A DNA stretch of 64,000 nucleotides from Wenjunlia tyrosinilytica (lineage in GTDB: Bacteria; Actinomycetota; Actinomycetes; Streptomycetales; Streptomycetaceae): the NCBI RefSeq assembly GCF_014646055.1, contig NZ_BMMS01000010.1:139674-203673 (forward strand), in the 5' to 3' direction. The position numbers and the translations under genes were made by a program. This document shows, piece by piece, positions 40,978-64,000 of this stretch. The notes under the pieces are model-generated. The model had not been told where the DNA came from. It searched no databases and worked only from the letters and a program-made list of their open reading frames with translations. Position 1 is the stretch's first letter; each line of letters opens with the position of its first letter.

Positions 40978-41247
40978 TCCGCCACCTTCTTCGTCCCGGC
41001 GCCGGAGGCCGACCGCGTCACGGTCGCCCTCCTGCCCCTCGTATGCCTCGTGGGTATGCCTTCGTGGGTATGCCTTCGTGCTCCTGGCGTGTCCACCAGT
41101 ACCCCCCGACCGGTGCGGCATACCCGCCGGTGGCCCGATTCCCCGTTTTCCGCCCCCCGCGCCGGGTACCCAGCGCCCGGCGACCCGCCGTCGTGAGGCC
41201 GCTGAGCGGGCCGGGAGCGGCAGAGCGGGCCGGGAGTGGAGGAGGCG

Positions 41248-42934
41248 ATGGACGCCGACGCGGACGCGATCGTGGTGGGCGCGGGCCCCAACGGCCTGGT
41301 GGCGGCGAACATCCTCAGCGACGCCGGGTGGCGGGTCCTGGTCCTGGAGGCCCAGCCCGTGCCTGGCGGCGGCGTACGCAGTGACCGCGGAGTCCATCCG
41401 GACTTCGAGAGCGACCTGTGCAGCTCGTTCTATCCGCTGGCCGTCGCCTCGCCCGCCATCAGGGCGCTGCGACTCGAGCAGTGGGGCCTGACGTGGAGCC
41501 ACGCGCCCACCGTCCTCGCCCACCCTCTGCCCGACGGCCGCTGCCCCGTCCTCGACCGGGACCTGGAGCGCACGGCGATGAGCCTGGACGCGTTCGCACC
41601 GGGCGACGGGCTGGCGTACGTGCGTCTGACCGGGCTCTGGGACCGGATCGGCGACGACCTCCTGCGCGCCCTGTTCACCCCGTTCCCCCCGGTGCGGGCG
41701 GGACTGGCGCTGGCCGCCGGGATGCGCGCCGCGGGGGGCCTGAGGCTGCTGCGGATGATGACGCTGCCGGTGCGGCGCCTGGGTGAGGAGGAGTTCGCCG
41801 GAGCCGGTGCGCCCGTGCTCCTGGCGGGCTGCGCCATGCACGCCGATTTCAGTCCCGAGTCCGCGGGCAGCGCCGCCTTCGGCTGGCTGATGGCGATGCT
41901 CGGCCAGAGGTTCGGCTGGCCGGTGCCGGCCGGTGGCGCGAGCGCGCTCACCACCGCCCTGGTGCGCCGCCCTGGAGGCCGGGGGCGGGAGCGTGCACTG
42001 CTCGACCCCCGCGCGGTCGGTGACCGTGAGGGACGGCCGCGCGGTCGCGGTGGTGACCGAGGACGGGGAGCCGGTACGGGCAGGGCGGGCGGTCCTGGCC
42101 GACGTACCCGCGCCCGCGCTGTACGGCGGGCTGGTCTCCTTCGACGACCTGCCACCGCGCACGCGCGACGACATCCGCCGCTTCCACTGGGACTACGCCA
42201 CCTTCAAGGTGGACTGGGCGCTGTCCGGCCCGATCCCCTGGACCGCGCCGGCGGCCGCCGGCGCGGGCACCGTGCATCTGGCCGAGGGAGTGGACCACTT
42301 GACGCGCTGCAACGCGCAACTGACCACCGGCCGGGTTCCCGACCGGCCGTTCGCGCTGCTGGGACAGATGACCACCGCGGACCGGCTGCGCTCGCCCGAG
42401 GGCACCGAGTCCGCGTGGGCGTACACCCATCTTCCGCAGCACATAAGGGGTGACGCCGGGGACGCCGGAATCCGGGGGAGATGGGGGCCGGGGGAGTGCG
42501 AGGCGATGGCGGAGCGGGTGGAGGCCGAGATCGAGCGGCTGGCCCCGGGGTTCCGCGACCGTATCGCCGCACGCCGTGTGCTGGCCCCCGCGGACCTCCA
42601 GCGGCACAACGCGAGCCTCCTCAACGGTGCCGTCAACGGCGGCACGGCCGCCGTGCACCAGCAGCTGGTCTTCCGGCCGGTACCGGGCTCCGGCCGCCCC
42701 GAGACACCGGTCACCGGCCTCTACCTGGCCTCCTCGTCCGCCCACCCGGGCGGCGGAGTGCACGGCGCCTGCGGGGCGAACGCCGCCCGCGCCGCGCTGC
42801 GCGGGCAGCGGGCGGTGACCCGCAAGGTCCTGGGCCCGGGGCTGGCGCGGGTGCAGCGGTCACTCGCCGGGGGACGCGGAGGGAGCGGGGGAGGCGGGGG
42901 AGGCGGAGAAAGCGGATCCGAGCGCCGGGAGTGA
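41248..42934 (+). pseudogene. Phytoene-desaturase-like FAD oxidoreductase, frameshifted
   Basis: The N-terminal part, from ATG 41248 behind GGAGGAGG, reads DAIVVGAGPNGLVAANILSDAGWRVLVLEAQ and stays family-like to GGASALTTALVRR. There one extra C in the run 41970-41972 shifts the frame. Family-like sequence resumes at once in another frame (LEAGGGSVHCSTPARSVTVRDGRAVAVVTEDGEPV) and runs to 42934, including the C-terminal FAD motif TGLYLASSSAHPGGGVHGACGANAARAAL. Removing one C restores a 561-residue protein, the normal length. It may be a recent loss, a sequencing error or a slippage site. The downstream SRPBCC gene is the usual neighbour. Confidence 0.85.
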
Positions 42935-47617: not shown

Positions 47618-47974
47618 TCAGCGGCGGGCGAGTCGGCGCTCGCCGCCCGCGCCCGCCCGGTAGGTCAGGCCGTAGTGCTCGAAGACGCCCGCCTCGTCCT
47701 GCGCGAGGAGCTCGCCGTCGACGTCGATCGAGGGAGCGTCCTTGACCTGCTTTTTGTCGAAGGGGACCGTCAGGTGCCCCGGGCTCACCGTGGCACCGTG
47801 CAGGGGGACGAAGACCAGCCGCTGGCGGGTCAGCATTCCCGTCTTGACCGTCGCGAAGGACGGCTGATCGGTCCCGGTGTCGACATAGATCGCCTCGAGG
47901 TCGCCGATCTTGCCGCCGTCGGACCCCACGACCGCGTAGCCGCGCCACTGACGGATGTCCTGGGCCTCGAACAT
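47618..47974 (-). CDS. PRC-barrel domain protein (118 aa)
   Basis: A single PRC-barrel: [79 protein letters not shown], then a short helix ([16 protein letters not shown]). Members are small stress-linked proteins in actinobacteria, thought to bind RNA or protein partners in some lineages. AGGAGGGCTCC precedes the ATG. Head gene of a two-gene unit with the small membrane protein; divergent from the large hybrid kinase. Confidence 0.87.
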
Positions 47975-48404
47975 GGAGCCCTCCTGTCCTCGCACACCAC
48001 CGCTGACACCTCTTGTAGGCATCGCTACCCCGTACCGCGCGGTGTACATCAAGCTTGCGCCGCCCGAGAAGGGCGGAACAGCCGCGGCTGATCCGATTGC
48101 GGCCGTCCGGGCCATCTCCTCCCGGAGTGCCCCGGCATCCGGCGCAGCCGCCGCCCCGCGTCCGGCCGGCCAGGGGTGGTGGAGGAGCCGCGGTCGGTGG
48201 TGGAGCGGCCACAGGGTGGCTCGAAGGCGGCTTCCCGCGCCCCGGTGCGCCGTCTTTCCTCGCTTCACGGTGGCCGAGGGGGAGACGGCTCGTGGAATCA
48301 TGGACCCAGGCCCGCTTGGGAGAACAGGCGGTCCGCAAGACCGGTCCGTCGTGCTTCGCCGACGGGTGGAATGGTTGTACGCGGGCAAGCTTGTGAGGGC
48401 GGGC
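47975..48404. other. Divergent region upstream of the hybrid histidine kinase
   Basis: 430 bases without a convincing gene. It must hold promoters for the PRC-barrel unit and the kinase. The kinase frame is open through most of it but the sequence is not family-like. No clear inverted repeat or canonical promoter was found. Confidence 0.5.
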
Positions 48405-52988
<4,584 letters not shown>

Positions 52989-53075: not shown

Positions 53076-55496
53076 ATGACCGGGCCGCGCCCCCTGCCGC
53101 CGGACCCCGGTCCCGGCCACCTCGCCGAGACCGTCGAACGGCTTCGGGCGCAGCTCGACGCGGCGCGCGCCGCCGCGCGGGCCCGTGGTGTCGTGGAACT
53201 GGCCAAGGGCATCCTGGTGGAGCGCCTCAAATGCGGCCCCGCCGAGGCCGCCCGGCATCTCGCCCAGCTCGCCGACAGCGCCAGGACACCGGTCGCGGAG
53301 CTGGCCGCGGACATCGTCGACGAGGCGGCAGGCGACGCACTGAGCCGCGCCGACGACGGGGAGGGGGCCGCCGACGACGGCGTGCTGCCCCCGCTGCGCC
53401 TGCGGATCGCGGAATCGGGTGTGTCCGACGCGCCGGACACACAGGTGGCCGCCGAGTCCTTGCTGGATAACGCCCTGAGACCGCTGGGAGCGACAGCGCT
53501 CGCCGTCTGGTCCGCGGCCGGCGACGGCTCCCTGGCGCTGCGCGGCCACGCGGGCTTCACCGCCGCGGAGGCGGCAGGCTGGCGCCACGTCCCTCCGGGG
53601 GTGGGGAGCCTGGCCCAACGAGCCCTCACGGGCAGCACCCCGATGCTGGTGGCGGACAGTCCCGCCGAGACCGGGCCTGCCGAGACCGGGCCTGCCGAGA
53701 CCGGGCCCGCAGGGGACGGGCCCGCGGGGGACGGCCTCATGAGCGACCCCGCCGACGCCGCGGCCGCCTCCATCGGACGCGGGGAGGCGCCCGGGGGACG
53801 GGTGGTCCTGCCGGCTCGAGTGGCGGGGCGGTTGCTCGGGGCTGTCGAGGTCTGCTGGCCGGGGCCGCTGCCCCCGCTCACACCCGCGGTCGGGCGGCAG
53901 CTCCAGGCGCTCGCCGATCTGTGCGCGCACACCCTCCGGGCCCCGCTCAGCGCGGAGGGAGGCGACCCGGCGCAGTTCGCCGAGCACGACCGCAGGGCGC
54001 CCCTGGTCGACCTCGCCGACGCGCTCCTCGATCCCGCCGTCCTGCTCCAGCCCCTCGTCGACGACCACGGCCGCGTCCGCGACTTCGCCGTCGTCCATCT
54101 CAACCAGCACGTCACCGACCTCGCCGGGCGCCCCCGCGCCGACCTCACCGGACGCTCACTGCTCGAGGCCCACCCCGGTGCCGCCGCCGAGGGCGGGCTG
54201 TTCGAGCAGGCCCTCCATGTGCACGCCACCGGCGAGCCCTTCAGCACCGAGGACATCGTTCTCGCGGACACCCCCGGCCCCGCGCCGCTGAGGGCCGCGG
54301 TGGGGATCGGCCGGTACGGCGAATGCCTGCTGGTCACCTGGCGGGTCCAGGACGAGGCCGCCCGGCTGTCCAGTCTGCTCCAGCACGCCCAGCGCCTCGG
54401 CCGCATCGGAGGCTTCGAGGAGAATCCCGTCACGGGCGAGGTCTCCTGGAGCAGTCAGCTCTTCGCCCTCCACGGCCTTTCCTCCACGGCTGCTCCCGTG
54501 CCGCTGAGGGAGCTGCGCTCCCGTGCCCACCCCGACGACGGCGTCGCCATCGGCCGGTTCCTGCGCACCCTCCTGCACCACCACCGGGCGTCCTCCGTCG
54601 CCTTCCGGCTCCAGCGCCCCGACACCGTGGTGCGCCACATGCGCGTGCTCGCCGAACCCGTCCTCGACGAGGCCGGCTGCCTCGTCGCCGTACGGGGCGC
54701 CTACCAGGACATCTCCTCGCAGCACTGGACGGAGGTGGCGCTGGCAGCCACCCGCGACCGGCTCGCCGACAGCGAGGAGCACGCCGCCGACCGCAAGCGC
54801 CTCACCCTCCAGCTCCAGGAGGCGATCATGCCTCCTGCCCCGGCCCAGGTCGATGCCTCCGGCCTCCAGATCGCGGTGCGCTACCGCCCCGCCGAGAACG
54901 ACAGCCTCGTCGGCGGAGACTGGTACGACGCGGTCGTGCTGCCCTCCAAACAGGTCCTGCTCGCCGTGGGCGACGTGGCGGGCCACGGCATCGAGGCGGC
55001 CACCGGCATGGTCGCGCTGCGCAACGCCCTGCGGGGGCTCGCCACCACCGGATCCGGGCCCGGCCAGCTCCTGGGCTGGCTCAACACCGTCACCCACCAC
55101 CTCACCGAGCAGGTGACCGCCACCGCCGTCGTGGGCGTCTACGACCCCCAGACCCGGACCCTGCGCTGGGCCCGCGCCGGGCACCTTCCCCCCGTCCTCA
55201 TCCGGGACGGCGCCGCCGAAGCCCTCCCGCTGCCGAAGGGCATCCTGCTGGGCGCCCAGTCCGAGGCCGACTACGAGGAGAGGGTCCTCGAGATGCGGTC
55301 CGGCGACACCTTGCTGATGTACACCGACGGGCTCATCGAGCGCAGGGACCGCTTCCTCCAGCAGTCCCTTGACCAACTGGTGCGAGCGGCGTCCGAGTCC
55401 CGTCCCGGACTCGAGGAGCGTCTCGACCACCTGCTCACCCACAGCAGCTCCGACACCGACGACGACACCTGCCTGGTCGGCGTCCACCTCCGCTGA
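53076..55496 (+). CDS. ANTAR-GAF-PAS-SpoIIE type PP2C phosphatase (806 aa)
   Basis: Cytosolic serine/threonine phosphatase of the RsbU/SpoIIE class, expected to dephosphorylate an anti-anti-sigma factor. An N-terminal ANTAR-like helical region (VVELAKGILVERLKCGPAEAARHLAQLA) is followed by a GAF-like segment (ESLLDNALRPLGATALAVWSAAGDG...), a Pro/Gly insertion built of three AETGP repeats, one or two PAS regions (LLDPAVLLQPLVDDHGRVRDFAVVHLN; LGRIGGFEENPVTGEVSWSSQLFALHGL) and the phosphatase domain with metal-binding Asp in LVGGDWYDAVVL, AVGDVAGHGIEAA, LLMYTDGLIERRD and DTDDDTCLVGV. ATG 53076 with GGGAG upstream. It lies 87 bases after the hybrid kinase and may share its signal path. No anti-sigma kinase gene is adjacent. 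Confidence 0.9.
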   Translation: MTGPRPLPPDPGPGHLAETVERLRAQLDAARAAARARGVVELAKGILVERLKCGPAEAARHLAQLADSARTPVAELAADIVDEAAGDALSRADDGEGAADDGVLPPLRLRIAESGVSDAPDTQVAAESLLDNALRPLGATALAVWSAAGDGSLALRGHAGFTAAEAAGWRHVPPGVGSLAQRALTGSTPMLVADSPAETGPAETGPAETGPAGDGPAGDGLMSDPADAAAASIGRGEAPGGRVVLPARVAGRLLGAVEVCWPGPLPPLTPAVGRQLQALADLCAHTLRAPLSAEGGDPAQFAEHDRRAPLVDLADALLDPAVLLQPLVDDHGRVRDFAVVHLNQHVTDLAGRPRADLTGRSLLEAHPGAAAEGGLFEQALHVHATGEPFSTEDIVLADTPGPAPLRAAVGIGRYGECLLVTWRVQDEAARLSSLLQHAQRLGRIGGFEENPVTGEVSWSSQLFALHGLSSTAAPVPLRELRSRAHPDDGVAIGRFLRTLLHHHRASSVAFRLQRPDTVVRHMRVLAEPVLDEAGCLVAVRGAYQDISSQHWTEVALAATRDRLADSEEHAADRKRLTLQLQEAIMPPAPAQVDASGLQIAVRYRPAENDSLVGGDWYDAVVLPSKQVLLAVGDVAGHGIEAATGMVALRNALRGLATTGSGPGQLLGWLNTVTHHLTEQVTATAVVGVYDPQTRTLRWARAGHLPPVLIRDGAAEALPLPKGILLGAQSEADYEERVLEMRSGDTLLMYTDGLIERRDRFLQQSLDQLVRAASESRPGLEERLDHLLTHSSSDTDDDTCLVGVHLR
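53664..53708 (+). repeat. 15-bp in-frame repeat, 3 copies
   Basis: GCCGAGACCGGGCCT three times (third copy ends GCCC), encoding AETGP repeats in a linker of the SpoIIE-type phosphatase; two degenerate AGDGP copies follow. Confidence 0.9.
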
Positions 55497-55775
55497 GCCG
55501 GGCCCCTCACCCCGGCGCAGGATCCGCCTCTGACTCCTGCCCCTTGCCCGCTTGCCCCCCTGACCCCGGGCCCCCTGACCCCGGGGCACCCTGACTCCGA
55601 GGCCCGCTGACCCCGGTGCCCCGGTCCCGGCGCACGGGCCCCGAACCCGTACCCGCCCCGGCACCCTTCCCCGATGAGTCCATAGGGCCGTCCAGCACTT
55701 ACTCGGCTCGGGAGGCGTCGGCTATCCAGGGAGTACACACGCGTCACTCCTTATTCATTTCGGAGGAGGACCTCC

Positions 55776-56855
55776 ATGGGCGAGACAACCGCCACCTCCG
55801 CAGATGTCGACACGATCGACGCCACCGAGGAATCCCCGATCCATATCCTGTGGATCAACGCCGGGCTGAGCTGCGACGGGGACTCCGTCGCGCTGACGGC
55901 GGCAACGCAGCCGACCATCGAGGAGATCGCGCTCGGCGCGCTGCCCGGCCTGCCCAAAGTGGCCGTCCACTGGCCCCTCATCGACTATGAGTGCGGTCCC
56001 GTGCAGGGGGCGGACAACTTCGTGGAGTGGTTCTTCAAGGCCGACCGCGGCGAGTTGGAACCCTTCGTCCTGGTGATCGAGGGCTCCATCCCCAACGAGG
56101 CCATCAAGAGGGAGGGTTACTGGTGCGGATTCGGGGACGACCCCGAGACCGGCCAGCCCATCACCACGAGCGAGTGGATCGACCGCCTGGCCTCCAAGGC
56201 GCTCGCCGTCGTCGCCATCGGCACCTGCGCCACCTACGGCGGCATCCACGCCATGCAGGGCAACCCCACGGGCGCCATGGGCGTACCCGACTACCTGGGC
56301 TGGGACTGGAAGTCCAAGGCCGGAATCCCCATCGTCTGCATCCCCGGCTGCCCGGTCCACCCGGACAACGCCTCCGAGACGCTCACCTACCTGCTGTACC
56401 AGGCCGCCGGATCGGCGCCGATGATCCCGCTGGACGAGGAACTGCGCCCCACCTGGCTGTTCGGTGCGACGGTCCACGAGGGCTGCGACCGCGCCGGCTA
56501 CTACGAGCAGGGCCAGTTCGCCACCGAGTACGGCTCACCCCAGTGCCTGGTCAAACTCGGCTGCTGGGGTCCCGTGGTCAAGTGCAATGTGCCCAAGCGC
56601 GGTTGGATCAACGGCGTGGGCGGCTGCCCCAACGTGGGCGGCATCTGCATCGCGTGCACCATGCCGGGCTTCCCCGACAAGTTCATGCCGTTCATGGACG
56701 AGCCGCCGGGCGCCCGCATCTCCAGCACGGCGAGCGGCGCCTACGGAACGGTGATCCGCAAGCTGCGTGACATCACCGCGAGGACGGTCGACAAGGAACC
56801 CAAGTGGCGGCACAGGGGCGACAAGATCCTGACGGGCTACCGGCCGCCGTGGTGA
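55776..56855 (+). CDS. hhyS: [NiFe]-hydrogenase small subunit, group 1h (359 aa)
   Basis: Electron-transfer subunit of an actinobacterial high-affinity H2-oxidising hydrogenase. There is no Tat signal peptide, as is usual for group 1h. The N-terminal cluster motif reads GLSCDGDSVAL: Cys33 is present but the second position of the usual C-x-x-C is Asp36, matching the 3Cys-1Asp proximal cluster known for this group. Further ligands lie in AIGTCATYGG, CIPGCPVHPD, HEGCDRAGYY, CLVKLGCWGP, CNVPKRGW and GGCPNVGGICIACTMPGFPDKFMPF. GGAGGAGGACCTCC precedes the ATG. First gene of an eight-gene cluster, 73 bases before the large subunit gene. Confidence 0.95.
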   Translation: MGETTATSADVDTIDATEESPIHILWINAGLSCDGDSVALTAATQPTIEEIALGALPGLPKVAVHWPLIDYECGPVQGADNFVEWFFKADRGELEPFVLVIEGSIPNEAIKREGYWCGFGDDPETGQPITTSEWIDRLASKALAVVAIGTCATYGGIHAMQGNPTGAMGVPDYLGWDWKSKAGIPIVCIPGCPVHPDNASETLTYLLYQAAGSAPMIPLDEELRPTWLFGATVHEGCDRAGYYEQGQFATEYGSPQCLVKLGCWGPVVKCNVPKRGWINGVGGCPNVGGICIACTMPGFPDKFMPFMDEPPGARISSTASGAYGTVIRKLRDITARTVDKEPKWRHRGDKILTGYRPPW

Positions 56856-56928
56856 CCACGCGTGGCGGCAGCCGCGTCACCGCGAGCGGCGGACCGGAAT
56901 CCGAAGGCTGAGGAAGGGTGCGCGAACG

Positions 56929-58713
56929 ATGACGCCGAAGACGAAGAAAGCGGATGACGGCAGCGGGCTCCTGGAGATGTCCTGGGACCCGATCACCCGG
57001 ATCGTGGGAAGCCTGGGTATCCACACCAAGGTCGACTTCAAGCAGAAGCGGGTCGCGGAGTGCTACAGCACCTCGTCCGTCTTCCGGGGGTACAGCGTTT
57101 TCATGAAGGGGAAGGATCCCCGCGACGCACACTTCATCACCAGCCGCATCTGCGGCATCTGCGGCGACAACCATGCCACCTGCTCCGTCTATACGCAGAA
57201 CATGGCGTACGGGGTGGCGCCGCCGCACATCGGTGAGTGGATCATCAACCTCGGCGAGGCCGCCGAGTACATGTTCGACCACAACATCTTCCAGGAGAAC
57301 CTGGTCGGGGTCGACTACTGCGAGAAGATGGTCAAGGAGACCAACCCGGGCGTGCTGGACCAGGCCGAGCGCACCCCAGCCCCCCACGCGGCCGAGCACG
57401 GCTACCGCACCATCGCCGACATCATGCGCTCCCTGAACCCGCTCGAGGGCGAGTTCTACCGCGAGGCGCTCCAGGTGTCCCGGATGACCCGGGAGATGTT
57501 CTGCCTGATGGAGGGGCGCCATGTGCACCCCTCGACGCTCTACCCGGGCGGTGTCGGCACGGTCGCCACCGTGCAGCTGTTCACCGACTACCTGACCCGG
57601 CTCATGCGCTACGTGGAGTTCATGAAGCGCGTGGTGCCGCTCCACGACGACCTGTTCGACTTCTTCTACGAGGCCATACCGGGCTACGAGGAGGTCGGGC
57701 GGCGGCGTGTCCTGCTCAACTGCTGGGGCGCCCTCAACGACCCGGAGTACTGCGACTTCACCTACCGCCGCATGAGCGAGTGGGGCAAGCGCATGTTCGT
57801 CACCCCGGGCATCATCGTGGACGGCGAGCTCATCACCAACGACCTGGTCGACATCAACCTCGGCATCCGCATCCTGCTCGGCAGCTCGTACTACGAGGAC
57901 TGGGCGGGCCAGGAGAAGTTCGTGGAGCGGGACCCGCTGGGCAACCCCGTGGACGAGCGCCACCCGTGGAACCAGCACACCATCCCGGCGCCGCAGAAGC
58001 GCGACTTCGACGGCAACTACAGCTGGGTGATGTCCCCGCGCTGGTTCAACGGCTCCGAGCACCTCGCCCTCGACACCGGCGGCGGACCCATCGCCCGCCT
58101 GTGGTCCACGGCGCTGTCCGGTCTGGTCGACATCGGCTACGTCCAGTCCACCGGCCACAGTGTGAAGATCAACCTGCCCAGGACGATGACCAAGCCGGAG
58201 ACCACGTTCGAGTGGAAGATCCCGCGCTGGAGCAACGCGCTGGAGCGCAACCGCGCCAGGACCTACTTCCAGGCGTACACCGCCGCGGCGGCGCTGCACT
58301 TCGTGGAGAAGGCCATGGACGAGGTCAGGTCGGGCCACACCCAGACCTGGGAGCACTTCGAGGTCCCCGACGAGTCCATCGGCTGCGGCTTCACCGAGGC
58401 CGTGCGCGGGGTCCTCTCGCACCACATGGTGATCCGCGACGGCAAGATCGCGAACTACCACCCGTACCCGCCGACTCCGTGGAACGCCAGCGTGCGCGAC
58501 TCCTACGGCACCCCCGGCCCCTACGAGGACGCGGTGCAGAACACCCCCATCTTCGAAGAGAACGACGTGGAGAACTTCAAGGGCATCGACATCATGCGCG
58601 CGGTGCGCAGCTTCGATCCCTGCCTGCCGTGCGGTGTGCACATGTACCTGGGCGACGGCAGGACGCTCGAGCAGATCCACACCCCCACCGGCCTGAGCGG
58701 GCTGGGTGGCTGA
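56929..58713 (+). CDS. hhyL: [NiFe]-hydrogenase large subunit, group 1h (594 aa)
   Basis: Catalytic subunit holding the NiFe(CN)2CO centre. The N-terminal ligand pair is Cys75/Cys78 in SRICGICGDNHATC and the C-terminal pair Cys565/Cys568 in FDPCLPCGVH. After His571 there is a 23-residue tail (MYLGDGRTLEQIHT...), the expected target of the maturation endopeptidase encoded downstream. The DPITRIVGSLGIH N-terminus and length fit group 1h. Together with HhyS it should oxidise trace, even atmospheric, H2 in air to support persistence. No hyp (NiFe assembly) genes are in the window, so they must lie elsewhere. Confidence 0.96.
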   Translation: MTPKTKKADDGSGLLEMSWDPITRIVGSLGIHTKVDFKQKRVAECYSTSSVFRGYSVFMKGKDPRDAHFITSRICGICGDNHATCSVYTQNMAYGVAPPHIGEWIINLGEAAEYMFDHNIFQENLVGVDYCEKMVKETNPGVLDQAERTPAPHAAEHGYRTIADIMRSLNPLEGEFYREALQVSRMTREMFCLMEGRHVHPSTLYPGGVGTVATVQLFTDYLTRLMRYVEFMKRVVPLHDDLFDFFYEAIPGYEEVGRRRVLLNCWGALNDPEYCDFTYRRMSEWGKRMFVTPGIIVDGELITNDLVDINLGIRILLGSSYYEDWAGQEKFVERDPLGNPVDERHPWNQHTIPAPQKRDFDGNYSWVMSPRWFNGSEHLALDTGGGPIARLWSTALSGLVDIGYVQSTGHSVKINLPRTMTKPETTFEWKIPRWSNALERNRARTYFQAYTAAAALHFVEKAMDEVRSGHTQTWEHFEVPDESIGCGFTEAVRGVLSHHMVIRDGKIANYHPYPPTPWNASVRDSYGTPGPYEDAVQNTPIFEENDVENFKGIDIMRAVRSFDPCLPCGVHMYLGDGRTLEQIHTPTGLSGLGG

Positions 58714-58769
58714 ACGGATCCGACAGGTCCACGGCCATGCGTCCCGGCAGGGAGCAGGAAGGCGGTGCC

Positions 58770-59702
58770 ATGGGATCGGCAGCGAAGGAACAGCAGCAGG
58801 CGGGGGAGCGGATATCGGCACTCCTCGACGAGCTGGACCGGACCGCGGGACCCGCGGTCCGGGACACCGCCGACGAACTCGTGCGCCAGATCGTCGAGTT
58901 CTACGGAGCGGGCCTGGCCCGGATCGTGGAGCTGATGGAGGCGCGCGAGGACGGCGCCGCCGCCCTCGAGGCGCTCACCCACGACGAGCTCGTGGCCGGG
59001 CTCCTGGTCCTGCACGACCTGCATCCCGACGACACCATGACCCGCGTCCAGAAAGCCCTGGACGAGGTCCGGCCCTACCTCGGCTCGCACGCCGGCGACG
59101 TCGAGGTGGTCGGCCTCGATCCCGGGACCGGTGTCCTGACGCTGCGCCTGAGCGGCAGCTGCGACGGATGCCCGTCCTCCACGCAGACCGTCCGCTGGAC
59201 CATCGAGGGGGCGGTGGCCCGGGCCGCCCCCGAGGTGGCCGCGGTCGAGGTGGAGGGCGTCACCGACGCCCCCGGAAATCCCGAACTGCTGCAGATCATG
59301 TCCGGCCCGCCGGGCACGGCATCGGCGTCGTCGGCCACCGCGCCGCCGGCCTCCCCGCCCTCGGCGGGCGAGGGCGAAGCGCGGTGGCACACCCTGACCG
59401 GGCCGCTGCCGTCGGCCGACGGCGAGACGGCGGTCCACCGGGTGGAGGGGCTGTCCCTGCTGGTGGTCCGCCTCCCCGGGAATCTGTACGCCTACCGCGA
59501 CCACTGCCCGGCCTGCGGGCACCCCGTCCACGACGGGACGCTCGACGGCTCCGAACTGGTCTGCCCCGGCTGCTCGCAGCGGTACGACGTACGCCGGGCC
59601 GGGCGGGGAAGCGCCGGTCATCTGGAGCCGGTGCCCCTGCTGGAGCAGGACGGCACGGTGCGGGTGGCGCTGCCCGCGGTGCTTCAGGAGGCCACGACAT
59701 GA
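58770..59702 (+). CDS. NifU-like Fe-S scaffold fused to a Cys4 ribbon/Rieske-like domain (310 aa)
   Basis: Residues ~1-90 are helical. Residues ~88-175 are a NifU C-terminal-type domain (TRVQKALDEVRPYLGSHAGDVEVVGLDPGTGVLTLRLSGSCDGCPSS) with the cluster cysteines Cys131 and Cys134. After a disordered linker, residues ~205-310 form a Rieske-like ferredoxin fold (WHTLTGPLPSADGETAVHRVEGLSLLVVRLPGNLYAYRDHCPACGHPVHDGTLDGSELVCPGCSQRYDV). The ligand set is Cys246-x-x-Cys249...Cys265-x-x-Cys268, not Cys-His/Cys-His, so it would bind zinc, iron or a four-cysteine cluster. It probably assembles clusters for, or shuttles electrons from, the hydrogenase. ATG 58770 with AAGG upstream; ATG 58737 is an alternative. 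Confidence 0.88.
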   Translation: MGSAAKEQQQAGERISALLDELDRTAGPAVRDTADELVRQIVEFYGAGLARIVELMEAREDGAAALEALTHDELVAGLLVLHDLHPDDTMTRVQKALDEVRPYLGSHAGDVEVVGLDPGTGVLTLRLSGSCDGCPSSTQTVRWTIEGAVARAAPEVAAVEVEGVTDAPGNPELLQIMSGPPGTASASSATAPPASPPSAGEGEARWHTLTGPLPSADGETAVHRVEGLSLLVVRLPGNLYAYRDHCPACGHPVHDGTLDGSELVCPGCSQRYDVRRAGRGSAGHLEPVPLLEQDGTVRVALPAVLQEATT

Positions 59703-60484
59703 CGGCTCGCCGGATCCAGGCCGGGCCGGAGCGGGCCGTCCGTCCGGACCGGGCCCGTCCACGTCCTGGCCGGGCTCCGGAGGTCCGGGCTTCCGAGGTC
59801 CGGGGTGCCCAGGACCGGGGTGGCCGGGGTGGTGAGGCGGGGCCGCCGACCGGGCCGGCCGCCCTGCGCCGCTTCACCCGGCGCCCCGCGGGTCCCGCCG
59901 AGGAGCGGTGCGACCTGTGCGGCGAGACGCTGCCGCCGGAGCACCGCCACCTCGTCGACACCCGGCAGCGCGCCCTCAAATGCTCGTGCGTCCCCTGCCA
60001 CATGCTGTTCACCCGGCCGGGAGCGGGGTCGGGCCGCTTCCGCGCCGTACCCGACCGCTATCTGCGGGACCCGGATTTCACCCTCGACGACGCCGACTGG
60101 AACCGTCTGCAGATCCCCGTGGCGCTCGTCTTCTTCTTCCGCAACTCCGACCTCGGGCGCCTCGTCGCCTTCTACCCCAGCCCCGCCGGAGCCACCGAGA
60201 GCGAGCTCGACCCGCAGACCTGGGACGACGTCATCGGGGGCAGCCGCCTCGCGCAGACCCTGGAGCCCGATGTCGAGGCGCTGCTCGTGCACCGGGAGAA
60301 GGGCGAGCACGGGGAGTGCTTCCTCGTCCCCATCGACACCTGCTACGAGCTGGTCGGCAGGATGCGCCTGCACTGGCAGGGCTTCGACGGAGGGGCCGAG
60401 GCACGCGCCGACCTCGCCGAGTTCTTCCAGCGAGTCCGCGAGCACGCCCGTCCCTGCGCCGACGCCGAGGGGAGCACGCCGTGA
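59699..60484 (+). CDS. DUF5947 family hydrogenase-associated protein (261 aa)
   Basis: A conserved partner of group 1h hydrogenase clusters, function unknown. The first ~55 residues are Arg/Pro-rich, disordered and built on repeated CCGGG-type DNA. The domain then carries two cysteine pairs (ERCDLCGETLPPEHRHLVD and LKCSCVPCHMLFTRPGAG), suggesting a zinc or Fe-S site, followed by DADWNRLQIPVALVFFFRNSDLGRLVAFYPSPAGATESELDPQTWDDVI and CFLVPIDTCYELVGRMRLHWQGFDGG. Start ATG 59699 overlaps the previous stop (ATGA); its own stop overlaps the next start (GTGA), so translation is coupled on both sides. Confidence 0.87.
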   Translation: MTARRIQAGPERAVRPDRARPRPGRAPEVRASEVRGAQDRGGRGGEAGPPTGPAALRRFTRRPAGPAEERCDLCGETLPPEHRHLVDTRQRALKCSCVPCHMLFTRPGAGSGRFRAVPDRYLRDPDFTLDDADWNRLQIPVALVFFFRNSDLGRLVAFYPSPAGATESELDPQTWDDVIGGSRLAQTLEPDVEALLVHREKGEHGECFLVPIDTCYELVGRMRLHWQGFDGGAEARADLAEFFQRVREHARPCADAEGSTP

Positions 60485-61272
60485 CCGACCTCGACTTCAC
60501 CTGCACGGACGTACGCCCCGAGGACTACGCGGCCGGGCCCACGCTGCTGTTCCGGCTGCGGATCGACGCGGCGGGCGGGGAGAGGGTGCACGCGCTCGCG
60601 CTGCGCTGCCAGATCCGCATCGAACCCGCGCGCCGCAAGTACGACGCGGGAGAGGCGGCGCTGCTGGGCGACCTGTTCGGCGAGCCGGAACGCTGGGGCA
60701 CCACCCTCAAGCCCCTCCAGTTCGCTCATGCCTCGATCACCGTCCCCGGCTTCACCGGGTCGACGGAGACCGACCTGCCGGTGCCCTGCACCTATGACAC
60801 GGAGGTCGCCTCCGCGAAGTACTTCCGGGCGCTGGCCGGCGGTGAGGTCCCGCTGCTCCTGCTCTTCTCCGGCACCGTCTTCACCGGGGAGCGGGGCTTT
60901 CGGGCCGAGCCGGTGCCCTGGCACAAGGAGGCCACCGTCCGTATGCCGGTGCGGGTGTGGCAGCAGATGATCGACCAGTACTTCCCCAACACCGGCTGGC
61001 TTCTGCTGCGCAGGGACAGCCTGGACGCGCTCCAGCGCTACCGCTCGCAGCGGGCGCTGCCGTCCTGGGAGCACGTCGTGGACGAACTCCTGCGTACGGC
61101 CGAGGCTCGGCAGGCGCAGGCGCAGGCGGGGACACCGACGGGGACACAGGCGGGGACACAGAAGACACCGAGGGCACAGGAGACACAGGCAGGGACACAG
61201 GCGGGGACACCGAACGCCCCGCAGAGTGGGACGGGGACTCGTGCGGCCCCGCAGAGGGGGTGGGCCCGATGA
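60481..61272 (+). CDS. DUF6084 family hydrogenase-associated protein (263 aa)
   Basis: Second conserved accessory protein of unknown function: DLDFTCTDVRPEDYAAGPTLLFRLRIDAAGGERVHALALRCQIRIEPARRKYDAGEAALLGDLFGEPERWGTTLKPLQFAHASITVPGFTGSTETDLPVPCTYDTEVASAKYFRALAGGEVPLLLLFSGTVF, apparently a beta-rich domain. The conserved part ends near FPNTGWLLLRRDSLDALQRYRSQRALPSWEHVVDELLRTAE (~residue 210). The last ~50 residues are a Gln/Thr/Gly/Ala tail from a GGGACACAGGCG-type DNA repeat. GTG 60481 overlaps the DUF5947 stop; its stop overlaps the next ATG. Confidence 0.87.
   Translation: MTDLDFTCTDVRPEDYAAGPTLLFRLRIDAAGGERVHALALRCQIRIEPARRKYDAGEAALLGDLFGEPERWGTTLKPLQFAHASITVPGFTGSTETDLPVPCTYDTEVASAKYFRALAGGEVPLLLLFSGTVFTGERGFRAEPVPWHKEATVRMPVRVWQQMIDQYFPNTGWLLLRRDSLDALQRYRSQRALPSWEHVVDELLRTAEARQAQAQAGTPTGTQAGTQKTPRAQETQAGTQAGTPNAPQSGTGTRAAPQRGWAR
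61120..61220 (+). repeat. GGGACACAGGCG-type repeat tract in the DUF6084 gene
   Basis: At least five imperfect copies of a ~12-bp unit (GGGACACAGGCG and variants), encoding the AGTQ/AGTP-type tail of the DUF6084 protein. In frame throughout. Confidence 0.8.
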
Positions 61273-62780
61273 CCGGCGATTCCACCACCCGGGTCCGCGA
61301 CGGCTTCGCCGAGGCCCGCAAGGCCGCCGACGCCGTGCTCTTCGAGGGCTATGTGCTCTACCCCTACCGTGCCTCGGCGGCGAAGAACCGGATGCGCTGG
61401 CAGTTCGGGGTGCTCGTTCCCCAGTCATGGGAGGACGCCGGAGGCGAGCACGCCCACCAGCGCACCGAGTGCCTCCTGGAGCCGCGCGGGGCCGAACGGC
61501 TCGTCGTGGAGCTGCGCTTCCTCCATGTGCGGCGCCGCACCGTGGAGCGCCCCTTCGCCGACGGCGGCGGCTTCGAGGAGGTGCCGGAGCTGGAACTGCC
61601 CGACCGGGTCCTGGTGCCCTGGGACGAGGGCAGCGAGGAGCGGATCGAACTGGCCGTGCCGCTGGAGGAGCTGTCCGGCGACGGCCACACCGCCCGCTTC
61701 ACCCGGCCGTGGTCGCGCGAGTACGAGGCCGTGGAGGGCGCCGACGGCCGCACCGCCGCCCGCCTGCGGCGTGAGGCGCAGCGGCTGGAGGGCGAGATCC
61801 GGCTGCGGATGGAGCCGGTGCCCGGCCCGTACGGCGCAATGCGCCTGACCGCGACGGTGCGCAACACCTCTCCCTGGGCGCCTCCCGCCTCGCGGGCGGG
61901 ACGGGAGGACGCGCTGCCGTACAGCCTGGTCGGCGCCCATCTCCTGCTCGGACTGCCCGGCGGGCGCTTCGTGTCGATGACGGACCCTCCGGAATGGGCA
62001 CGCCCGGCCGCGGAGGCCTGCCGCAACGAGCACACCTGGCCGGTGCTGGCCACACCCGACGGCGACGACGTCCTGCTGTCCTCGCCGATCATCCTGGAGG
62101 ACCGCCCGCAGGTGGCCGCCGAGAGCGCGGGAACCCTCTACGACGCCACCGAGATCGACGAGATCCTCTCCCTGCGCACCGCGGCCCTGACCGAGGGCGA
62201 GAAGCGCGAGGCGCGCGGCACGGACCAGCGGGCCGCCGAGGTGATCGACCTCGTGGACACCCTCCCCTCCGATGTGATGGAGCGGCTGCACGGGGCCATT
62301 CGGGGGCTTCGGGAGGTCACGCGGGACGAGGACGAGTCCCCGGCGGACGGGACGGAGTCGGACAGGAGCGGGCCGGACAGGAGCGGGCCGGACAGGAGCG
62401 GGCCGGACGGGAAGGAGCCGGACGGGACGGAGCCCCCGGCGGTGCCCTCGCTGCCCACGGGTCCGGGCATGCCCTGGTGGGACCCCGGCAACGATCCGGA
62501 GGTCGACCCCGACAGGGACACCGTGAGTGTGTCCGGCTGCGCCCTGGGAGCGGGCAGCCGGGTGGCGCTGCGGCCGGGACAGCGCCGCACCGACGCGCAG
62601 GACATCTTCCTGCACGGGCGGACGGCGACGGTCGAGGCGGTCCTGCACGACGTCGACGGTGAGGTGCACTTCGCGGTGGTCGTCGACGGCGACCCGGGCG
62701 CGGACGTGCGCCGCGAGCAGGGACGCTTCCTCTACTTCCGCCCCGACGAGGTGGAGCCGCTGACCGAGGAGGACGTATGA
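61269..62780 (+). CDS. Uncharacterised hydrogenase-cluster protein (503 aa)
   Basis: I recognise no named domain. The N-terminal ~250 residues (DAVLFEGYVLYPYRASAAKNRMRWQFGVLVPQSW; ECLLEPRGAERLVVELRFLHVRRRTVER; TARFTRPWSREYEAVEG) look like a mixed alpha/beta domain. The middle (NTWPVLATPDGDDVLLSSPIILEDRPQVAAESAGTLYDATEIDEILSLRTAALTEGEKREAR) is conserved-looking, followed by a DRSGP repeat linker and a C-terminal beta domain (VALRPGQRRTDAQDIFLHGRTATVEAVLHDVDGEVHFAVVVDGDPGADVRREQGRFLYFRPDEVEPL). Because it sits between DUF6084 and the maturation protease with 4-base overlaps on both sides, a role in hydrogenase assembly or membrane linkage is likely (inference). Confidence 0.82.
   Translation: MTGDSTTRVRDGFAEARKAADAVLFEGYVLYPYRASAAKNRMRWQFGVLVPQSWEDAGGEHAHQRTECLLEPRGAERLVVELRFLHVRRRTVERPFADGGGFEEVPELELPDRVLVPWDEGSEERIELAVPLEELSGDGHTARFTRPWSREYEAVEGADGRTAARLRREAQRLEGEIRLRMEPVPGPYGAMRLTATVRNTSPWAPPASRAGREDALPYSLVGAHLLLGLPGGRFVSMTDPPEWARPAAEACRNEHTWPVLATPDGDDVLLSSPIILEDRPQVAAESAGTLYDATEIDEILSLRTAALTEGEKREARGTDQRAAEVIDLVDTLPSDVMERLHGAIRGLREVTRDEDESPADGTESDRSGPDRSGPDRSGPDGKEPDGTEPPAVPSLPTGPGMPWWDPGNDPEVDPDRDTVSVSGCALGAGSRVALRPGQRRTDAQDIFLHGRTATVEAVLHDVDGEVHFAVVVDGDPGADVRREQGRFLYFRPDEVEPLTEEDV
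62361..62420 (+). repeat. 15-bp in-frame repeat in the 503-aa protein gene
   Basis: GACAGGAGCGGGCCG three times exactly (62361-62405) plus a diverged fourth copy, encoding DRSGP units in an inter-domain linker. Confidence 0.9.
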
Positions 62781-63541
62781 GCACCGCCTCCGCACCCCGG
62801 GTCCCCTCGGCCGACCGCACCCTGGTGGCCGGAGTGGGCAATATCTTCCTGGGCGACGACGGCTTCGGCGTCGAGACCGTACGGCGGCTGGCCGGACATC
62901 CCCTGCCCGAGGACGTGGACGTCATGGACGTCGGCATCCGCGGTGTCCACCTCGCCTACCGGCTGCTCGAGGGCTACCGCAGGCTCGTCCTGGTGGACAC
63001 CGCCTCCCGGGGAGCGCGGCCGGGGACCGTGCACCTCGTCGAGGCCCCCGCCACCGCGGCGAAGGCCCCGGGACCCCCGATGGACGGGCACTCGATGGAC
63101 CCCGCCGCCGTGCTCGCCCTGGTGCACGAACTGCGCGAGGGCGCGGGCGGAACGGTGCCCGAGCAGGTGCTGGTGGTGGGCTGCGAGCCGATGGACCTCG
63201 ACGAGGGGATCGGCCTGAGCCAACCGGTGGCGCAGGCCGTCGACCGGGCCGTGGACCTGGTCCTGGAGATCGTGCGCGGACCCGGCCCCGCCGTGGTCGG
63301 GCGGCCGGACGCGGCCCTCACAGGCGACGCCGCCAACCGCCCCACCGACGACCGCTTCACCGACGACCGCTTCACCGACAACCGCTTCACCGACGACCGA
63401 GCGAGCGAAGGAGACGGGCATGGATCGGATGTGGATGGCCGCCACCGCGGCGGTGGCGCTGGGAGCGACGCTGCTGCTGACGAAGGCCGTGCTGCCGGAC
63501 GTGCAGCGCTACCTGCGGATCCGCCGGATGTGAACCGATGA
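62777..63541 (+). CDS. [NiFe]-hydrogenase maturation protease, HyaD/HupD family (254 aa)
   Basis: Endopeptidase that removes the C-terminal tail of the large subunit after nickel insertion. Family motifs: TLVAGVGNIFLGDDGFGVETV (N-terminal Glu ligand region), DVDVMDVGIRGVHLAYRLLEGYRRLVLVDTAS (Asp), MDGHSMDPAAVL (His) and VLVVGCEPMDLDEGIGLSQPV. The core ends by ~residue 178 (DLVLEIV). The remaining ~75 residues are repetitive (TDDRF units) and overlap, in another frame, a whole small gene at 63420-63533, so they may be non-essential. ATG 62777 overlaps the preceding stop (ATGA). Confidence 0.92.
   Translation: MSTASAPRVPSADRTLVAGVGNIFLGDDGFGVETVRRLAGHPLPEDVDVMDVGIRGVHLAYRLLEGYRRLVLVDTASRGARPGTVHLVEAPATAAKAPGPPMDGHSMDPAAVLALVHELREGAGGTVPEQVLVVGCEPMDLDEGIGLSQPVAQAVDRAVDLVLEIVRGPGPAVVGRPDAALTGDAANRPTDDRFTDDRFTDNRFTDDRASEGDGHGSDVDGRHRGGGAGSDAAADEGRAAGRAALPADPPDVNR
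63344..63403 (+). repeat. 15-bp tandem repeat, 4 copies, in the protease tail
   Basis: ACCGACGACCGCTTC at 63344, 63359, 63374 (one change) and 63389 (last three bases changed), encoding TDDRF units; it lies just upstream of the ribosome binding site of the nested DUF6893 gene. Confidence 0.93.
63420..63533 (+). CDS. DUF6893-like small membrane protein (37 aa), nested out of frame
   Basis: A 37-residue protein, MDRMWMAATAAVALGATLLL followed by TKAVLPDVQRYLRIRRM, with one N-terminal membrane helix and a basic C-terminal tail. The ATG has an excellent ribosome binding site (GAAGGAGACGGGC). Similar tiny proteins (DUF6893) follow group 1h hydrogenase protease genes in Streptomyces, as I recall. 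It lies wholly inside the maturation protease frame (different reading frame), ending 8 bases before that stop. A membrane-anchoring or electron-transfer-linking role is speculative. Confidence 0.8.
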   Translation: MDRMWMAATAAVALGATLLLTKAVLPDVQRYLRIRRM

Positions 63542-63549
63542 GGGCTCGC

Positions 63550-63954
63550 CTACGGCCAGGTCCTCCGGCGCTCGGGACGCTCGGGGCGATCCGCCCCGGG
63601 CCGTCGGACGACGTCCGCGCACTCGAGCTGCGCGTAGCGTTCGAGGAAGACATGGAGCGTGCTGTGCAGTTCGCCCAGGCGCATGAACCACAGGGCCAGC
63701 TCCATGGCGCCCTTCGGCGTGATCTCGTACTCGCGCCGCGCGGGACCGGTCGCGGACGCCCTCCAGGAGGAGGCCACGACCCCGTCGTGCTCCATACCGC
63801 GGAGCAACCGGTACACATGCGCCGACTCAGTCATCGGCCAGCCGAAGGCCTCCATCCGCTGGACGAGTTCGTATCCGTGGTCCGGCCGCTCGGCGACCAG
63901 GAGCAGAAGCACCGGGACGGCGAGAGCGCGCCGTTCGACACCGTGAACGGTCAT
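63550..63954 (-). CDS. PadR family transcriptional regulator (134 aa)
   Basis: Winged-helix repressor: ALAVPVLLLLVAERPDHGYELVQRMEAFGWPMTESAHVYRLLRGMEHDGVVASSWRASATGPARREYEITPKGAMELALWFMRLGELHSTLHVFLERY. The HGYEL motif, the wing (PARREYEITPKG) and a C-terminal dimerisation helix are all recognisable. GGAG nine bases ahead supports ATG 63954; ATG 63969 and GTG 63984 are also in frame. It is convergent with the hydrogenase cluster, leaving 8 bases between them, so a role in its control is possible but not indicated by any operator seen here. Confidence 0.88.
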   Translation of the reverse strand: MTVHGVERRALAVPVLLLLVAERPDHGYELVQRMEAFGWPMTESAHVYRLLRGMEHDGVVASSWRASATGPARREYEITPKGAMELALWFMRLGELHSTLHVFLERYAQLECADVVRRPGADRPERPERRRTWP

Positions 63955-64000
63955 GGCATGGCTCTCCATAAGGCTGTCGCCCACCGTGGGGAGGCGATCT

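Follow-up and report, generated by a model that had tools for sequence, protein, structure and literature searches.

The closest described counterpart of the gene cluster treated here is that of the actinobacterial-type hydrogenase (AH) of Cupriavidus necator H16 (hofK hofG, PHG064–PHG070 on plasmid pHG1), which has been published as two subunits, four function-unknown open reading frames (ORFs; PHG066–069), hupD and hyp genes (PMC4377017). Our subject is the group 1h [NiFe]-hydrogenase (Hhy) cluster at positions 55776–63541 of a 64,000-nucleotide stretch of the Wenjunlia tyrosinilytica genome (the window; contig C10, 139674–203673, of an 8.49-Mb assembly in 172 contigs) and, above all, a 37-codon gene of family DUF6893 at its 3′ end. 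The C. necator cluster shares the order small subunit, large subunit, NifU-like protein, DUF5947, DUF6084, a protein of unknown family and protease, followed by hyp genes. Its large subunit is 78.5% identical to HhyL of the window, and it also carries a DUF6893 ORF, which is missing from the gene table used, a table flagged as incomplete. It differs in its NifU-like protein, which lacks the two NifU cysteines and which, at 192 residues as annotated, has no four-cysteine domain.

The mycobacterial Hhy cluster on a plasmid of M. intracellulare (L085) has the same genes, including a NifU-like protein (HhyE) with both its NifU and its four-cysteine part and a DUF6893 ORF, but here the latter lies between the gene of the family-less protein, called P503 in the following, and that of the protease. 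The M. smegmatis counterpart (MSMEG_2718, hhyE; MSMEG_2717) is known to us from its description in the literature only. Huc, a group 2a enzyme, is likewise a high-affinity, menaquinone-linked uptake hydrogenase, and its link to the membrane is provided by a separate operon-encoded protein, HucM (PMC10017518). The accessory block as such is not new: PHG066–069 were already described as ORFs lacking a function (PMC4377017), four function-unknown coding sequences adjoin hhyL in alphaproteobacterial methanotrophs (PMC12319191), and the operon of Thermomicrobium roseum is reported to include conserved hypothetical proteins named hhaABC (PMC6776052), which may or may not be related to this block.

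In the window, the structural operon of this group 1h (Hhy, actinobacterial-type) enzyme is complete and is accompanied by a dedicated, conserved accessory block. That a group 1h cluster is present had been claimed in an earlier note on this DNA, and translation and family scans bear this out by identifying hhyS, hhyL, hhyE, DUF5947, DUF6084, P503 and the protease gene. The small-subunit gene hhyS (55776–56855, + strand; 359 amino acids) encodes a product with PF01058 and PF14720 and occupies the position of the C. necator small-subunit gene. Both rows found for PF00374 (nickel-dependent hydrogenase) in the genome fall in one frame, that of hhyL (56929–58713, +; 594 amino acids), with no other match. 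Large subunits of [NiFe]-hydrogenases carry the nickel motifs RxCGxC..H (L1) and DPCxxC..H (L2), and HhyL has both, as RICGICGDNH and DPCLPCGVH. After the C. necator protein, the next plasmid matches listed are about 26% identical to HhyL, and HofG (5aa5) is the only PDB sequence matched at E ≤ 1e-60.

A DUF6893 micro-gene linked to the hydrogenase cluster

The micro-gene (63420–63533, +) comprises 37 codons and a stop, and its product has one predicted transmembrane helix and a tail ending in LPDVQRYLRIRRM. It scores 35.3 bits against PF21833 (cut-off 24.6; first 36 of the 37 residues scanned) and is the sole match to this family in the genome. It lies entirely within the 3′ part of another ORF, read in a different frame; that ORF encodes a HycI/HyaD-type maturation protease (62777–63541, +; 254 amino acids; TIGR00072 with 120.5 bits over residues 16–165; PF01750). 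Such nesting in GC-rich sequence could suggest that the micro-gene is an ORF by chance, an explanation that we consider highly improbable on several grounds. The GC content at the three codon positions is 0.70/0.49/0.95 in the DUF6893 frame and thus of the coding type, as in the body of the protease gene (0.83/0.49/0.93). By contrast, the protease frame shows 0.90/0.68/0.49 over 63419–63541, and because this is unlike coding sequence the protease probably ends, in functional terms, before the DUF6893 stretch. Protease lengths, as picked, vary widely in other loci.

Related loci were represented by the best 80 of 589 by HhyL, 78 of which come from genera of the Streptomycetaceae; 76 are complete in that they have all seven genes from hhyS to the protease gene. 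Each of the 76 complete loci has an ORF with the DUF6893-type motif whose end falls between −100 and +400 nucleotides (nt) from the protease stop; in 75 of them it ends 83–245 nt past that stop, which argues against a chance frame. The motif was composed after these loci had been viewed, and its absence elsewhere serves as the control: no further motif ORF was found on either strand of 1.59 Mb of complete loci. Selection at the protein level is apparent from a pN/pS of 0.43 for the last 13 codons in 79 loci, whereas reading these bases in either of the remaining frames gives 1.2 and 1.8; it is weaker over the last 24 codons (0.70). Moreover, a homologue exists in another phylum. The 33-residue ORF of C. 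necator (L083, 17642–17740, with the stop codon following), located between the protease gene and hypF on pHG1, reaches 38.9 bits with the Pfam model, and a model built without the C. necator copy ranks it best of 533 ORFs of that locus (E 5.8e-5). Its score with a further model, which includes this peptide, would be circular and is disregarded. The idea of a chance ORF was therefore dropped on the combined strength of Pfam score, selection, codon-position GC and position past the protease stop.

Linkage of DUF6893 to Hhy is evident from its occurrence in genomes. Searches covered 296 genomes of Actinomycetota and 251 of Actinomycetes, and as at most 25 or 30 candidates were scored per genome, all DUF6893 counts are lower bounds. 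In the first set, DUF6893 exceeds the Pfam cut-off in at least 25 genomes, 21 of which also have P503; conversely, at least 21 of the 28 genomes with P503 have DUF6893. In the second set, DUF6893 was found with Pfam's own model in at least 40 genomes and DUF5947 in 48, with 38 having both (Fisher p 3e-33). Thirty-six of 41 DUF6893 places in this set lie 353–3056 nt downstream of DUF5947 on the same strand. The other five are those in G401, where the cluster extends over two contigs, in G339, where protease gene and DUF6893 stand at a contig start and DUF5947 is on a different contig, in G150 and G214, and an extra copy in G366.

The usual place of DUF6893 is after the protease gene. In M. intracellulare and in G008, G038, G096 and G086 it is found between P503 and the protease gene, and G140 has it in both places; in genomes with a cluster type that lacks DUF6084 it follows DUF5947 at a distance of 353–524 nt. 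Thus, DUF6893 stays with the cluster when the gene order changes. Four of the 296 genomes have DUF6893 above the cut-off and no P503. One of them (G150) harbours a decayed Hhy locus and another (G195) the protease gene and DUF6893 alone; the match in G214 (23 residues within a 795-residue frame) is doubtful, and that in G269 is a 15-residue match at a contig edge, with no profile match in the contig fetched. The decayed Hhy locus L176 (9287–10400) consists of two hhyS fragments followed by DUF6893 and the protease gene, and its 19-kb region has no match to hhyL, hhyE, DUF5947, DUF6084 or P503.

In the open-licence literature we found no mention of DUF5947 or DUF6893, and DUF6084 appeared there only in the context of antibiotic biosynthesis. 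Among the matches listed from that literature, a small membrane protein belonging to Hhy is named in no title or beginning of an abstract, and none was found there on a NiFe-hydrogenase microprotein.

Proposed membrane attachment of the enzyme

Copies of DUF6893 are about 32–39 residues long. A mean hydropathy of 1.6 over 19 residues is reached by 96 of 110 DUF6893 peptides; among 80 proteins each, the same value is reached by no HhyS or HhyL, two HhyE, three DUF5947, one DUF6084, seven P503 and two protease sequences. Because none of the other products attains it in more than seven of 80 cases, DUF6893 alone among the products of the structural genes and the accessory block is, by this measure, clearly transmembrane. 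Its tail is near-invariant (RY..I..M, with the pattern PD[ILV][RK]RYL[RK][IM]R.M-COOH), with RY among the last nine residues in 110 of 110 peptides and a terminal methionine in 109. The net charge of the C-terminus exceeds that of the N-terminus in 92 of the 110. According to the positive-inside rule the basic end of a membrane protein is cytoplasmic, so the basic tail suggests that the C-terminus of DUF6893 faces the cytoplasm. As for the enzyme, the N-terminus of HhyS from the window, read by eye, is without a twin-arginine translocation signal, and the string RR.[FLVI] occurs within the first 45 residues of six of 80 HhyS proteins (starts as picked). A gene for a cytochrome b anchor is neither among the products of 55776–63541 nor among seven of the ten ORFs listed for the roughly 9.4 kb that follow the window, the rest of the genome not having been searched for one.

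Hhy has been reported to occur with the membrane in Methylacidiphilum fumariolicum SolV, M. smegmatis and P. methylaliphatogenes (PMC7174314). For the SolV enzyme (Hyd-1h), whose subunits are devoid of membrane helices, association via a currently unknown partner was considered possible, and the isolated enzyme was described as having a lower affinity (PMC7174314). The earlier note had supposed that one of the accessory proteins might supply the membrane attachment, and in DUF6893 this idea now has a concrete candidate, the tether itself being a proposal. Based on predicted topology and gene linkage, we propose that HhyS and HhyL, both without a membrane helix, operate at the cytoplasmic face of the membrane, and that DUF6893 crosses the membrane once and exposes its basic C-terminal tail to the cytoplasm. 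The tail would dock either on the Hhy complex itself or on an accessory protein, and docking would tether Hhy to the membrane and to the menaquinone pool. HhyE, DUF6084, P503 and DUF5947, the last with conserved cysteines and histidines that probably form a metal site, may act as dedicated assembly or adaptor proteins, and DUF5947, or HhyE where its cysteines are kept, may also pass electrons. We regard this model, in which DUF6893 tethers the enzyme and a dedicated accessory block serves in assembly or as adaptors, as having an even chance of being correct. Somewhat more tentative, and to our mind just short of an even chance, is the wider proposal that DUF6893 is an overlooked, near-universal subunit of the group 1h enzymes of Actinomycetota and of AH-type proteobacteria whose near-invariant tail clips the cytosolic enzyme to the membrane at its quinone exit.

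In such a role DUF6893 may be likened to HucM of Huc. The likeness would be one of function: HucM, a protein of 188 residues, builds a tetrameric stalk associated peripherally with the membrane, whereas DUF6893 would contribute a single hydrophobic helix, the two having been compared by length and hydropathy only. The membrane solution may also vary between branches of group 1h, since the operon of SolV, which according to PMC7174314 is without the homologous hypothetical genes, has two other hypothetical membrane proteins.

Several observations weigh against a tether of this kind. The C. necator cluster carries DUF6893 although its enzyme was reported to be cytoplasmic (PMC7174314, PMC4377017) and of low affinity (PMC7174314), so that in this species one would have to assume a tether that is weak, that is not expressed or that came off during preparation. 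HhyE has been reported to co-localise with HhyS and HhyL on native gels (work cited in PMC6883350), and we met no such report for DUF6893. DUF6893 is also not found above the cut-off in all genomes with the cluster. It falls short in seven of the 28 P503 genomes (G100, G103, G124, G128, G171, G182 and G264) and in ten of the 48 DUF5947 genomes of the 251-genome set. Local profiles, which yielded the copies at L185, L186, L187 and L188 beyond those counted above, recovered a copy in four of these ten (G356, G369, G477 and G511). In G128 and G171 a divergent micro-ORF is all that was seen; G182 has a broken P503 with neither protease gene nor DUF6893 after it in the stretch fetched; in the stretch fetched from G423 neither DUF6893 nor an hhyS match was present; and G433 and G469 were left out of the inspection. 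Two deep-branching loci that are complete through the protease gene (L167 and L169, HhyL identity 63–64%) show no DUF6893. Micro-ORFs of Methylocystis (tail FRDIVRYIKITMM, directly after the protease gene) and of the S. cattleyicolor type (PGLIREIRIWRM) fit in place and pattern, but their profile match is not significant: those of L084, L086 and L158 have no PF21833 match, and with our own profiles they scored E of about 0.05–0.3 or were not among the matches listed. Finally, a few extra DUF6893 copies occur away from the protease gene, beside a hypC-like gene, beside a histidine kinase gene or without hydrogenase genes in the contig fetched.

The association with the protease gene might point to another role. 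DUF6893 might recruit or regulate the maturation machinery at the membrane, for example P503 or the protease, or it might be a small protein acting on a respiratory complex. In its usual place it directly adjoins the protease gene, it is kept with the protease gene in L144, where the fetched stretch has no other Hhy genes, and in L176 with its hhyS fragments, and extra copies lie near a hypC-like gene. However, in one cluster type DUF6893 follows DUF5947, and thus it does not simply track the protease gene. We consider these alternatives possible but less likely than the tether. The extra DUF6893-like copies are located at L165 3045–3140 (−), L196 2155–2250 (+), L192 5823–5924 (+) and L195 2472–2561 (+). 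Two of the four are near a HypC-like gene and have a tail of the form ..QRY.QLRDM, one is beside a histidine kinase/receiver pair, and one is on a 4.3-kb contig without matches to the Hhy cluster.

The accessory block and the electron outlet

The genes of the block are hhyE (58770–59702), DUF5947 (59699–60484), DUF6084 (60481–61272) and P503 (61269–62780), all on the + strand and followed by the protease gene. Their co-ordering with the structural genes, a claim of the earlier note, holds widely: the window's order was recovered with our ORF picker in 75 of the 76 complete loci, the odd one (L054) reflecting a mis-picked HhyE frame of 601 amino acids, which was excluded from one HhyE alignment. 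An order conserved so widely is not a matter of chance. In L010, L013, L025 and L076 at least one gene is missing, and three of these loci are on short contigs; in L049 P503 was shortened to 145 amino acids by the ORF picker. The same order is found in C. necator pHG1, Methylocystis parvus and M. intracellulare. The earlier note had further described a chain of 4-base overlaps from 59699 to 62780. All four boundaries are as described (ATGA at 59699, GTGA at 60481, ATGA at 61269 and ATGA at 62777), but DUF6893, which it had counted in, stands outside the chain because of its nested position. In the window and the other loci taken together, such overlaps join DUF5947 to DUF6084 in 77 of 81 cases, DUF6084 to P503 in 79 of 81 and P503 to the protease gene in 69 of 81, counts that are biased because the start picker favoured a 4-base overlap wherever one was available. 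It had also been argued that coupling this tight implies stoichiometric products. This does not follow, as genes of dedicated assembly factors can overlap likewise, and the idea that all accessory genes encode stoichiometric subunits was dropped since gene overlap alone cannot show it.

A second fixed order lacks DUF6084 and runs P503-(protease)-S-L-E-DUF5947; it is found in S. cattleyicolor, in G128 and G171, which belong to the window's own family, in several genomes of family f85 and in one of f84. Apart from this arrangement, from clusters cut by contig ends and from a few broken loci, the genes lay together in the fetched neighbourhoods, so that the scattering in most genomes which the earlier note had named as refuting its view was not seen. 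Among the 296 genomes of Actinomycetota, DUF5947 is present in 26, DUF6084 in 27 and P503 in 28; DUF5947 shares 26 genomes with P503 and 24 with DUF6084. Among the matches listed, at least 30 genomes have an HhyL of at least 60% identity, at least 25 of them together with DUF5947; those with such an HhyL match and no DUF5947 are G107, G130, G184 and G227, whose HhyL matches are fragmentary, and G042. In G042 (L149, 7897–8255) hhyE and DUF6084 are about 360 bases apart with neither DUF5947 nor an N between them, and the contig ends inside DUF6084; the absence of DUF5947 may be a real loss or an assembly error. In searches of 72,556 plasmids, 10 records had DUF6084 and 12 had P503, and every one of these belongs to the 12 that have an HhyL of 72–88% identity; four fetched regions with HhyL relatives of 40–42% identity (presumably group 2a) contained none of DUF5947, DUF6084, P503 and DUF6893. 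The accessory block thus looks specific to group 1h, and the view that its genes form one dedicated set with Hhy is supported.

The earlier note had classed all five accessory genes as being of unknown function. For hhyE this needs qualification, as its homologue has a deletion phenotype in M. smegmatis: deletion of hhyE lowers H2 oxidation, and deletion of both hhyE and hucE eliminates it (PMC6883350). Together with conserved Fe-S-type motifs and the association with the structural genes, this led Islam et al. (2019) to propose, with reservations, that HhyE is the electron outlet, in which NifU-type and four-cysteine clusters pass electrons from HhyS to menaquinone (PMC6883350). HhyE of the window (310 amino acids) fits this proposal, as PF01106 and PF00355, the latter for its C-terminal four-cysteine Rieske-like domain, are above their cut-offs and the NifU-like motif GSCDGC and the C-terminal CPAC...CPGC are all present; many actinobacterial copies fetched from outside the 80 loci also keep both motifs, most of them being longer and retaining CxxC. 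In the set of 83 HhyE proteins, however, 78 of which are from L003–L082, the ligands are mostly lost. The paired C-terminal CxxC is found in four of the 83 (the window, L011, L020 and L085) and in two of the 78, the NifU motif G.C..C is missing in 79 of the 83, CxxC is reduced to CxC in many Streptomycetaceae proteins, and both cysteines are absent from the C. necator homologue. Since a carrier through which electrons had to pass would be expected to retain its ligands, and since the NifU CxxC is lost too, the case for HhyE as a general electron outlet is weakened, and we judge this role improbable. Truncated HhyE had already been noted by Islam et al. (PMC6883350).

DUF5947 (261 amino acids; PF19372 with 252.5 bits, cut-off 25) is the second candidate for such a role, and Schäfer et al. 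(2013) proposed for PHG067 that it acts as electron acceptor or carrier (cited in PMC6883350). Its ligand set CxxC-HxH-CxCxxC (C71, C74, H82, H84, C95, C97 and C100) is invariant in all 22 proteins of one alignment, which are from Actinomycetota, C. necator and Methylocystis, as well as in all 50 of a second one (window and L003–L082), and except in G042, with its hhyE and DUF6084, the gene is present in the gene orders seen. In its AF2 model (mean pLDDT 84), however, residues 67–119 weakly resemble zinc fingers: with VIA-align, the best matches listed for the cysteine region were the ArfGAP domain of centaurin and ribosomal L24e (Z 3.3 over 42–43 residues). No Foldseek match had an E below 0.001 (best 0.095), and no redox family was recognised by sequence. 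A zinc-bearing assembly factor would fit the model at least as well, and we consider a role of DUF5947 as electron carrier possible but unlikely.

Sequence profiles of P503, DUF6084 and DUF5947 matched nothing in the PDB below E 0.2. DUF6084 (263 amino acids; PF19562 with 321.4 bits, cut-off 25) is modelled by AF2 (mean pLDDT 85) as a beta-sandwich with helices and has a repetitive C-terminal tail. Foldseek returned 40 matches at E ≤ 0.001, those listed having a TM score of 0.18–0.30 by query length and being mostly unrelated beta-sandwich proteins, and the best VIA-align match (1xo8, Z 9.0 over 128 residues, rmsd 3.3) is followed by four unrelated entries at Z 8.0–8.2. Because unrelated beta-sandwich proteins match similarly, we claim no more for DUF6084 than a predicted sandwich. 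P503 (503 amino acids) belongs to no Pfam or NCBIfam family, and a Pfam scan of seven members gave two weak families, each with one member and the best at E 0.064. In seven genomes of family f18, profile rows show P503 as two pieces, an N-terminal one of about 335 residues and a C-terminal one of about 100, and in the six of them that were fetched (L164, L166 and L151–L154) the parts are adjacent ORFs, which marks P503 of the window as a two-part protein. Tandem repeats with units of 9–30 nt occur at 61123–61260, 62344–62427 and 63336–63399 and give rise to low-complexity stretches in three adjacent genes, namely the DUF6084 tail, a P503 linker and the protease tail.

Surroundings of the cluster and implications

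The absence of hyp genes, stated in the earlier note, turned out to be an effect of the window edge. HypB-like, HypF, HypD and AIRS-type (HypE-like) genes are on the same contig, where they start about 0.5 kb after the window, at about window coordinate 64470, and extend to about 6.5 kb after it. Between DUF6893 and these genes lies a gene for a PadR-type regulator (63550–63897, −), which might regulate the cluster. Upstream of hhyS and on the same strand are genes for a hybrid histidine kinase with repeated HAMP domains, GAF and receiver (47955–52988, +) and for an ANTAR-PAS-SpoIIE protein (53076–55496, +). One frame at 39397–42174 (−) combines an FAD-dependent oxidoreductase domain with a Rieske domain. 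Consensus scans of 55300–64000 indicated neither a sigma-70-type promoter nor a terminator-like site, and the window has no tRNA gene.

Our analysis adds DUF6893 as a predicted membrane micro-gene linked to Hhy to an accessory block that was already known (PHG066–069). H2-scavenging soil bacteria have been described as the primary sink of the hydrogen cycle (PMC6883350), and how group 1h enzymes attach to the membrane and pass electrons to the respiratory chain has been left open (PMC6883350, PMC7174314). If DUF6893 were the tether, it would explain the membrane binding of enzymes that have neither a membrane helix nor a cytochrome, and it would also explain why detaching the enzyme costs affinity. 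Recombinant Hhy or AH produced with no genes other than those of the two subunits may then be short of a native component. With a named gene of 37 residues that is also present in the C. necator cluster, the question of Hhy attachment becomes experimentally testable.

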